A DNA stretch of 64,000 nt, from contig NZ_JAGQBW010000007.1 in assembly GCF_024345835.1 (NCBI RefSeq), positions 62,001 to 126,000 of the forward strand, given 5' to 3'. Every line of letters starts with the position of its first letter. Within the stretch, counting starts at the first letter, position 1. Below are positions 10,247 through 12,967 of this stretch, one piece after another. Source of the stretch: Synechococcus sp. HJ21-Hayes. GTDB lineage: Bacteria; Cyanobacteriota; Cyanobacteriia; PCC-6307; Cyanobiaceae. The position numbers were made by a program, and so were the translations under genes. The notes beneath the pieces are model-generated. The model did no database searches and was not told where the DNA came from. It worked only from the letters and a program-made list of their open reading frames with translations.

Positions 10247-11254
10247 TTACACCGTTATAGAGCCGCTCGGCGAACTGACTGCATCCTGCAGTCGTTCGGG
10301 CCCCACGGCGGCTATCGCTTCAGCCAGATCCACGGTGCCGTCATAGAGGGCCCGGCCCACGATCACTCCCTCGACGCCGAGGGGAGCCACGGAGAGCAGC
10401 GAGAGCACGTGTTCGAGCGTGCCGATGCCGCCGGAGGCGATCACAGGAATGCTGCTGGCCTGGGCCATGGCCCGCAGGGAATCCAGGTTGGGGCCTGCCA
10501 GGGTCCCATCGGTGGCGATATCAGTGCTGATGATGGCGGCAACCCCGGTGTCTTCAAAACTCTTGGCCAGTTCCGTGGCCTTGACGCTGCTGGTTTCGAT
10601 CCAGCCGCGGGTGGCCACCAGGCCGTCCTTGGCGTCGATGCCCACCACCACCTGGCCGGGATAGCGGCTGGCCAGGCGTTGCACCAGTTCGGGCTGTTCG
10701 ATGGCCACGGTGCCGAGGATCACGCGATCGAGGCCGCAGCCCAACAGCTCCTCAGCCCGCTCGGCGCTACGCACCCCGCCACCGAGTTGGACGGGAATGT
10801 CGAGGGCGGCGGTGATGGCCTTCACCGCGTTGTCATTCACGGGTTGGCCGGTCCGGGCGCCGTCCAGGTCCACCAGGTGCAGGCGCTGAGCCCCCTGGCG
10901 CTGCCAGGCGAGGGCCTGGGCCACCGGGTTGTCGCTGAAGCGGGTCACCTGGTCGTAGTCACCCTGATGCAGCCGTACGCAGTGCCCGTCGAGCAGGTCG
11001 ATGGCCGGGATGATCTGCATGGCGGCGGGGGTGGGTAACTGTTGCCAGCCAGGCTGCCAGAGGCGCCGATTGCGCAGGTCCCGCAGCGGCACCACCAGCC
11101 GGAAGCTGCGCTGCAGCACCGCCTCCAACTCCACAGCCCGCTCGGTCCCCTTGCCCCGTTCTCCCAGCAGGGCGAAGTGGCGATAGCCGCCACTGCGGCC
11201 CAGGCTGGCCGCTTGGGCAGTCCAATGGTGCGGCACCCGCGAGGTTGTACTCAT
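10247..11254 (-). CDS. hisA: TIGR02450-like Trp-rich domain fused in frame to HisA
   Basis: The open frame runs uninterrupted from ATG 11254 to 10247 (335 residues). Residues 79-335 are a full phosphoribosylformimino-5-aminoimidazole carboxamide ribotide isomerase of histidine synthesis. It begins MQIIPAIDLLDG (internal ATG at 11020) and has the second catalytic aspartate in STDIATDGTLAGPN. Residues 1-78 resemble the cyanobacterial TIGR02450 Trp-rich family (HHWTAQAAS, YRHFALLGERGKG, VPLRDLRNRRLWQPGWQ). ATG 11254 overlaps the coq4-like stop as ATGA, so translation probably starts there. HisA could also start internally at 11020; the sequence does not show which product is made. Confidence 0.88.
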   Translation of the reverse strand: MSTTSRVPHHWTAQAASLGRSGGYRHFALLGERGKGTERAVELEAVLQRSFRLVVPLRDLRNRRLWQPGWQQLPTPAAMQIIPAIDLLDGHCVRLHQGDYDQVTRFSDNPVAQALAWQRQGAQRLHLVDLDGARTGQPVNDNAVKAITAALDIPVQLGGGVRSAERAEELLGCGLDRVILGTVAIEQPELVQRLASRYPGQVVVGIDAKDGLVATRGWIETSSVKATELAKSFEDTGVAAIISTDIATDGTLAGPNLDSLRAMAQASSIPVIASGGIGTLEHVLSLLSVAPLGVEGVIVGRALYDGTVDLAEAIAAVGPERLQDAVSSPSGSITV

Positions 11255-11943
11255 GCTGTGAAGTGTTGGCCGAGGCCATAGGGCTCGGCGTCGGCGGGAT
11301 CGAGCAGTCCCAGCTCCTGCCGCCATTCGCGGATGGACCGTTCCCAGCCGTCTTCCCAGCGCACCGCCGCCAGGCAGTGGGCCTGCCGGCCGATCCCCAT
11401 GCCATGGGCCACGGCGCGGCTCAGGGCTTCAAAGCGTTGCGTCTGGAAGCGGAAGCTGGCCAGTTGGCTGGCACTGGTAAGCAGCACGTAGGCCGGGAAT
11501 CCGATCTGGGCGGCGGTGATGGCCAGCACGCCGGTTTCGCCCTCCGGGGCGGTGCCGAAGCCACTGATCACATGGTGGATGTCATGGGTGGTGGCCACCC
11601 GCTGGGTGAGCCACTGGGCTTCGGTGGTAGTGGGTCGGGGGCGGAAAAATTCCGGGTCGTAGTTGAGACGCCGAATCAGGCTGGCGTAGTTGTGGCCGAG
11701 GCTTTCCGCCGGCAGTTGCAGCAGCAGCTCGATGTCGGGCTGCAGGGGTGGATAGCGGCTCTCCATCATCTCGGCCCCACCGGGTACCTGCCGGAAGCGA
11801 CGCACACAGTCCGCCATCTGCGGGCTGTCAAGGAAGCTGTCCACCAGGTCAGCCACGTTGCTCAGATCGCCGCCACTGCGGCCGATGGTCGCCAGCAATT
11901 TGAGGTTGTTGAGGGAGCGCAGCAATTCGGTGAAGCGTGACAT
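11251..11943 (-). CDS. Coq4 family protein
   Basis: 230 residues from ATG 11943 (MSRFTELLRSLNNLK). The metal-site motif of Coq4, HDxxH, is intact as TTHDIHHVISGFG near residues 128-140. The flanking helices (AESLGHNYASLIRRLNYDPEFFRP and LAITAAQIGFPAYVLL) fit the family. Eukaryotic COQ4 acts in ubiquinone head-group decarboxylation/hydroxylation. Cyanobacteria make plastoquinone, so the substrate here is unknown. Its TGA overlaps the start of the Trp-rich/HisA frame by 4 nt, indicating translational coupling. It is divergent from the epimerase gene across about 100 nt. Confidence 0.85.
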   Translation of the reverse strand: MSRFTELLRSLNNLKLLATIGRSGGDLSNVADLVDSFLDSPQMADCVRRFRQVPGGAEMMESRYPPLQPDIELLLQLPAESLGHNYASLIRRLNYDPEFFRPRPTTTEAQWLTQRVATTHDIHHVISGFGTAPEGETGVLAITAAQIGFPAYVLLTSASQLASFRFQTQRFEALSRAVAHGMGIGRQAHCLAAVRWEDGWERSIREWRQELGLLDPADAEPYGLGQHFTA

Positions 11944-12046
11944 CAAGACTGCGGTCTGGATCTGAAGATGAATGTGTTCCCAGTGTGGGGCCGCCAGATC
12001 CGTTGGGGCAGCGGTTTGAATGGCGCGCAGTTCCGCAAGGCCTGTC

Positions 12047-12967
12047 GTGAAGATCCTGGTGATGGGTGGCACCCGCTTTGTGGGCAAGCCGCTGGTAGCC
12101 CAGCTCCAGGCCGAGGGCCATGCCCTCACCCTCTTGACCCGCGGCAAGAACCCCGTGCCGGCAGGCGTGGAGCACATCAGCGGCGATCGCACCAGCCCCG
12201 CCGGCCTGTCGGCCCTTGAGGGTCGCCGTTTCGATGTGATCGTGGATAGCTCAGGCCGCACGGTTGAGGACAGCCGTGCCGTGGTGGAGCGCACTGGAGC
12301 CCCAGCCCATCGCTTTGTGTACGTGAGCTCGGCGGGTGTGTACGCCGACAGCGTGCTCTGGCCCCTCACGGAGGACTCCCCCACCGATCCCCAGAGCCGC
12401 CACGCCGGCAAGCTCGACACCGAGGCCTGGCTCCAGGCCGAGAGGATCCCCTTCACCAGTTTTCGGCCCACCTACATCGTGGGTGCGGGCAACTACAACC
12501 CCGTGGAGAGCTGGTTCTTTGACCGCATCGCACACGGCCGGCCCGTGCCCCTGCCCGGTGACGGCGACACCATCACCCAGCTGGGCCACGTGAACGATCT
12601 GGCGGCGGCCATGGCCCGCAGCATTGGCGTGGATGCCGCCGCCAACCGCATCTACAACTGCAGCAGTGCCCAGGGCATCAGCTTCCGGGGGCTCGTGGCC
12701 GCTGCTGCCCGCGCCTGTGGCAAGGATCCGGCTGCAGTAGAGATTCGCAGCTTTAATCCCGCTGGCCTGGATCCCAAGGCCCGCAAGGCTTTTCCCCTGC
12801 GCTTGGCCCATTTTCTCACCGATATCCATCGGGTACAGCGGGAGCTGGCCTGGACGCCGCAGTACGACGTTGAGCGCTCCCTTGCCGACAGCTTCACCAA
12901 CGATTACGCCAGGCGCATGGCCACAAGCCCGGATTTCAGCTCCGATGAGGCCCTTCTGGCGGGTTGA
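12047..12967 (+). CDS. NAD-dependent epimerase/dehydratase, CSP41-like
   Basis: About 306 residues from GTG 12047 (reads V/M-KILVMGGTRFVG); an ATG at 12020 would add nine. The Rossmann dinucleotide loop is GGTRFVGKPLVAQL at the N-terminus. VYVSSAGVYADS near residue 95 supplies the serine/tyrosine region of extended SDR enzymes, although the classical YxxxK lysine is replaced (context HAGKLDTEAWL). That fits the CSP41/Rap38 group of plastid and cyanobacterial epimerase-like proteins, which bind RNA/ribosomes in chloroplasts. It is a single gene, convergent with pgsA 3 nt away. The precise role is inferred. Confidence 0.82.
   Translation: MKILVMGGTRFVGKPLVAQLQAEGHALTLLTRGKNPVPAGVEHISGDRTSPAGLSALEGRRFDVIVDSSGRTVEDSRAVVERTGAPAHRFVYVSSAGVYADSVLWPLTEDSPTDPQSRHAGKLDTEAWLQAERIPFTSFRPTYIVGAGNYNPVESWFFDRIAHGRPVPLPGDGDTITQLGHVNDLAAAMARSIGVDAAANRIYNCSSAQGISFRGLVAAAARACGKDPAAVEIRSFNPAGLDPKARKAFPLRLAHFLTDIHRVQRELAWTPQYDVERSLADSFTNDYARRMATSPDFSSDEALLAG

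Follow-up and report, generated by a model that had tools for sequence, protein, structure and literature searches.

In a group of freshwater cyanobacteria, HisA and a small Trp-rich domain (DUF2389/TIGR02450) are encoded in one frame, and the fused gene is conserved among them. The best explanation of the data as a whole, which we regard as reasonably probable, is that this conserved fusion contains an expression signal belonging to hisA itself.

Structure of the fused gene

In the window, i.e. the whole stretch of 64,000 nucleotides analysed, the fused gene occupies positions 10247–11254 of the minus strand. Read from 11254 to 10247, it consists of 335 codons followed by a stop, and no stop separates the DUF2389/TIGR02450 domain from a complete HisA, as translation, profile matches and relatives all indicate. 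A mechanical list of open reading frames places the start upstream, at ATG 11326; position 11254 agrees with the place where the domain similarity begins. The stop of a coq4-like gene (11251–11940, minus strand; PF05019, E 6.5e-19) overlaps the start of the fused gene as ATGA (11254–11251), which had already been noticed in the first-pass annotation. Its suggestion that ribosomes enter at the Trp-rich start is plausible. An ATGA or GTGA start is found in 20/23 fused loci of the genus. In 18 of these 23 loci the TGA of the overlap closes an open frame 150 or more codons long, which was identified as coq4 by profile for the window. Ribosomes starting at 11254 would produce one 335-aa protein, an ordinary HisA barrel preceded at its N-terminus by the small predicted beta-barrel domain.

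The presence of this coq4-like gene (PF05019) in a cyanobacterium also caught our attention; cyanobacteria make plastoquinone. A divergent gene on the plus strand (12020–12967, from the list of open reading frames) carries the motif MGGTRFVG, by which we take it to be NAD-dependent epimerase-like.

The HisA part (10247–11020, minus strand) comprises 257 aa from the internal ATG 11020 and begins with MQIIPAIDLL at residue 79. Residues 80–308 match PF00977, and residues 81–312 match TIGR00007 with 262.3 bits (NCBIfam cut-off 228.95) over profile positions 1–230 of 231. The family profiles are matched over their whole length, and the predicted AlphaFold barrel is like that of solved HisA/PriA structures (Foldseek E 2.3e-26); what differs is the addition of 78 N-terminal residues, domain and linker. 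D86 and D207, presumably the two catalytic Asp residues to judge by the positions in T. maritima HisA, are invariant in 28 aligned sequences.

The Trp-rich domain (residues 10–71; 11042–11227, minus strand) scored above the cut-offs of both profiles, with 50.8 bits against PF09493 (cut-off 25) and 41.6 bits against TIGR02450 (cut-off 36.85); the domain sequence alone gave 55.1 and 45.9 bits, respectively. With both domains above their cut-offs and no internal stop, the proposed in-frame fusion of a Trp-rich domain to HisA was confirmed. The fused domain has W-T-A, RHF and W-x-x-G-W in common with stand-alone copies. In the other lineages read, DUF2389 is a small stand-alone protein, whereas here there is no stop before HisA, and the scores are 48–66 bits in the fused own genus versus 78–93 bits in other cyanobacterial families. 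The AlphaFold model of the domain is a five-strand small barrel (pLDDT 88) that weakly resembles Tudor-like domains (best Z 5.9, with the UvrD C-terminal domain; best Foldseek E 0.81), and a PDB sequence search with the domain gave no credible match (best E 0.16). Since the structural matches were weak, no assignment to an SH3-like or Tudor small-barrel fold was made. Neither the name DUF2389 nor TIGR02450 was found in the literature searched, nor did we find a known function of DUF2389.

Both parts of the gene show purifying selection: over 698 moderately diverged pairs, drawn from 49 of the 50 fusions (L183 omitted), pN/pS was 0.53 for the domain and 0.30 for HisA. None of the 23 fused genomes of the genus has a DUF2389 match besides the fused copy. 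The domain has no stop of its own and the fusion protein must therefore be made if the domain is made; we consider it highly likely that the fusion polypeptide is produced, and we infer that the domain affects HisA.

Distribution of the fusion

With the 335-aa product as query, matches were obtained in 23 of the 25 genomes of the genus, and all 23 proved to be fused when the DNA was read, including G006, in which the match was split by a longer linker. The two genomes without a match were G002, which is 62% complete, and G004, where the only close HisA is a fragment at a contig end. In a search of 300 genomes of the family, full-length matches occurred in further genera, among the matches listed, and the chosen loci place fusions in at least eight genera of the family, that of the window included. 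Among the carriers picked up in a single GTDB contig scan are Vulcanococcus sp., Cyanobium usitatum, Cyanobium sp. T1B-Tous and Synechococcus sp. 8F6 and CS-1331. As a whole, the earlier interpretation was partly supported: that the two are normally separate genes holds for the other cyanobacteria looked at, but in the window's own genus the fusion is the rule, and it occurs in seven more genera, so that the stop is not missing only here.

The relatives were compared at 123 loci, which were chosen and not random, being an initial set of loci together with fused candidates and unfused relatives picked among the matches listed, so that 50 fused loci out of 123 is not a frequency. Each genome contributed one locus except G258, with two. 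This bin, possibly a mixed one, has two hisA copies on separate contigs (L120, L121), both fused but different from each other. The linkers of the 50 fused loci have seven lengths (6, 7, 8, 15, 25, 31 or 32 residues), all in frame, being in frame having formed part of the scoring as fused; in the window the linker has 8 residues by translation (71–78; 11021–11044, minus strand). An HMM scan of the 1.3 kb upstream of hisA at the 123 loci found the domain in frame in 50/50 fused loci, and also in G256, which is cut by the contig end, and, frameshifted, in G285; a separate DUF2389 ORF was found in this region in no other family locus read. G256 (L136) was taken as fused in the tree and counted among the unfused in the element counts.

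A sequencing or assembly error that removed a stop, which had been named as a possible refutation, was rejected as the source of the fused frame because relatives share it. The same open frame is present in 50 loci, five of them in one-contig genomes of the own genus; nothing was found in favour of an error here, the frameshifted fusion of the relative G285 (L138) possibly being an assembly error of its own. We give this explanation practically no weight.

Of 16 genomes searched in genus g6, G282 has the fusion, and the other 15 carry DUF2389 either on a different contig from hisA or at a distance of hundreds of kilobases; in several further g6 genomes the DUF2389 search gave no match. In G045 and G046, from two other cyanobacterial families, a separate DUF2389 ORF precedes hisA on the same strand, at a distance of about 0.5 kb and 0.07 kb, respectively. 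Its place upstream of hisA suggests a route to fusion.

An element upstream of hisA

In 47 of the 71 family loci labelled as unfused, an element of the form xAxGATGG (CAGGATGG, GAGGATGG, GAAGATGG, CAAGATGG or GATGATGG) starts 27–44 nt before the hisA ATG; it was recorded in loci L024 and L026–L030 and in unfused loci among L141–L214. Most of the other unfused-labelled family loci have a decayed form, e.g. CAGGATGAG. The strict pattern fixes GATGG, so that position 2 alone is a free test, and this position was A in 57/57 cases although the pattern allowed G. In the AT-rich loci (58–66% A+T), CAGGATGG is found in L027 and L028 and CAGGAT in L029 and L030. A leader peptide starting from the ATG of the element was considered and rejected, as this ATG can stand in any of the three frames with respect to hisA and is missing from some forms; pairing of the element with the 5' codons of hisA was judged by eye only and set aside. 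In some fusions of genus g68 (L115, L116, L117), CAGGATGG directly precedes the Trp-rich start and not hisA, which looks like an insertion of the domain between hisA and its element.

Ten of the 50 fusions, three each from the own genus and g58 and two each from g46 and g74, keep xAxGATGG inside a linker of 15–32 residues. Because the element lies inside them, these long linkers look like former leader sequence that has come to be translated. The remaining 40 fusions have linkers of 6–8 residues and lack xAxGATGG.

LWQPGW codons in short-linker fusions

All 40 short-linker fusions write the LWQPGW motif of the domain with TCTGGCAGCCT and CCT for proline, and their CAGCCT stands at the same distance from the hisA ATG as xAxGATGG does elsewhere. 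In the window, the codons CTC TGG CAG CCT GGC TGG lie at 11045–11062 of the minus strand, and each of the four degenerate ones is identical in 40/40 short-linker fusions; overall, 7/80 conserved P/L/G/Q columns, these four included, use a single codon. The signal that we propose for hisA on the basis of sequence comparison is TCTGGCAGCCTG (11061–11050, minus strand), with CAGCCT at 11056–11051, i.e. at -36 from ATG 11020. It is found once in the window (0.12 expected). The 13-mer TCTGGCAGCCTGG, longer by one G, occurs twice in the genome, the second copy being at 127004–127016 of contig C12 of G000 (L277).

The ten fusions with xAxGATGG have CCG (8) or the serine codon AGC (2) instead of CCT; the relation between element and CCT among the fusions has a Fisher p of 1e-10, with kinship ignored. 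Among the 123 loci, xAxGATGG was present within 60 nt of the ATG in 57 and TCTGGCA[A/G]CCT in 48; 18 loci had neither form and none had both. The strict forms are absent in 16/121 family loci, and G029 and G126 have neither form even by a loose hexamer pattern, which was devised after the sequences had been viewed, the strict counts being the more trustworthy. A still looser A-n3-T pattern, with 118/121 family loci but without a chance control, was left out of the argument. The hexamer starts at -27 to -44 in 104/105 loci with either form; in G093 it is at -12, too close to the ATG.

It could be supposed that only the 335-aa protein is made, that the LWQPGW codons are held by protein sequence, codon bias or descent, and that ATG 11020 is just Met79. 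LWQPGW is indeed among the best-conserved stretches of the domain, and its codons may be common to related genomes by descent. However, against the 40/40 for CCT here, it is used in 5/355 cases at nine other conserved proline columns of the same 40 genes. Long-linker fusions and the stand-alone copies of genus g6, moreover, use CCG or CCC where the proline is present. The g6 stand-alone tally was CCG 14, CCC 1 and CCT 0, after removal of the CCT of L276, which is a piece of another fused gene, the second in G132; the fused congener G282 has CTC TGG CAG CCT. Stand-alone copies in other genera have serine or another residue at this proline and are uninformative on its codon. The segment is also found where there is no domain to encode: TCTGGCA[A/G]CCTG stands before hisA in six domain-less loci (G264, G127, G093, G200, G155 and G105; the frameshifted G285 was excluded), and in five of them the flanking bases on both sides are unlike the fused form, in G264 those on the upstream side only. 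When 49 fusions were pooled, the LWQPGW block was low in synonymous diversity, with some HisA windows lower still; it stands out once the fusions are split by linker type.

The lack of a Shine–Dalgarno-like sequence before the HisA ATG, present in 1/50 fusions only, might also speak for the 335-aa protein as the only product. This is uninformative because unfused hisA is likewise without one (3/73; 4/123 loci in all). We consider the explanation by a single product unlikely, and regard it as likely that the fused frame contains a hisA-specific signal, acting as DNA or RNA.

The start of HisA itself is kept. Its Met is present in 18/18 fused rows of an alignment that is independent of that Met, and the start codon is ATG in 50/50 fusions; the locus finder required Met at this place, and no fused candidate was dropped by that requirement. 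A hisA-type signal within the fused frame, together with retention of the second start, favours two products, as the first-pass annotation had envisaged should 11020 also be used. Judging from the sequence, the locus probably yields HisA alone, begun at ATG 11020, in addition to the long protein. In this lineage hisA would have retained its own expression signal within the LWQPGW codons, and a short transcript from about 24 nt before ATG 11020 would yield HisA alone.

Nature of the proposed hisA signal

We lean slightly towards a promoter, with the hexamer as putative -10 element. An A at position 2 and a T at position 6 mark a -10 element. The T at position 6 was fixed by our search patterns, and A at position 2 was free only in the xAxGATGG set. 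As a -10 element, the hexamer would leave a leader of some 15–30 nt. In other cyanobacterial families, TANNNT was present at -31 to -56 in 10/17 parsed hisA loci, with a mean of 6.0 in shuffled sequences; a count of 10 was reached in 3% of the shuffles. A scan of 10900–12100 for the sigma-70 consensus (-35 and -10) gave no matches and no -35, an absence that fits a fusion with a single product, and CAGCCT agrees with TATAAT at two positions and no more. The accessible parts of PMC5069720 and PMC6091082 contained no usable promoter motif.

The signal might instead work on RNA or through a DNA-binding regulator, e.g. as a translation or leader element of hisA. Such a role would suit the GC-rich element kept in the AT-rich loci L027–L030 and the constrained block, which reaches beyond the hexamer to CTC and GGC. 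The invariable A at position 2 is nevertheless what a -10 element has, the excess of TANNNT in the other families points the same way, and an Rfam search with eight loci gave no match. We regard this alternative as rather improbable.

At least 10 changes between fused and unfused must be placed on the HisA tree, and well supported branches demand 3 of these; because of these counts a single origin followed by many losses is indistinguishable from repeated origins. Two independent pairs on well supported branches show a joint change of element and codon, each in the direction expected (sign test p 0.5); on the best tree there are five such pairs. With all 121 family loci there are three supported pairs, typically two in the expected direction and one without difference. 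These results are consistent with a trade-off between element and codon and not significant by themselves. A bolder reading, to which we give slightly less than even odds, is that the hisA promoter of this cyanobacterial family was captured in coding sequence as the linker shrank, the LWQPGW codons being recruited as -10, repeatedly and in a trade-off with the old element, and that the promoter is a fossil where the domain was lost. If this is true, a single stretch serves as conserved protein motif, as promoter and as the junction within a gene with two products.

Comparison with known histidine gene fusions

'Trp-rich protein' together with hisA was not found in the literature searched. Known fusions of his genes include hisIE, hisNB, hisHF and hisIED (PMC1963479), and HisA–DUF2389 is not among the five kinds of fusion named in the accessible part of that 2007 paper. 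The gene described here may be a natural case of a fusion whose second half can still be expressed separately, by means of a DNA signal concealed among the codons. As in the known cases, a histidine gene takes part; those fusions link enzymes of the pathway, whereas here HisA is joined to a domain for which we found no known role, and DUF2389 gains a physical link to a metabolic enzyme.
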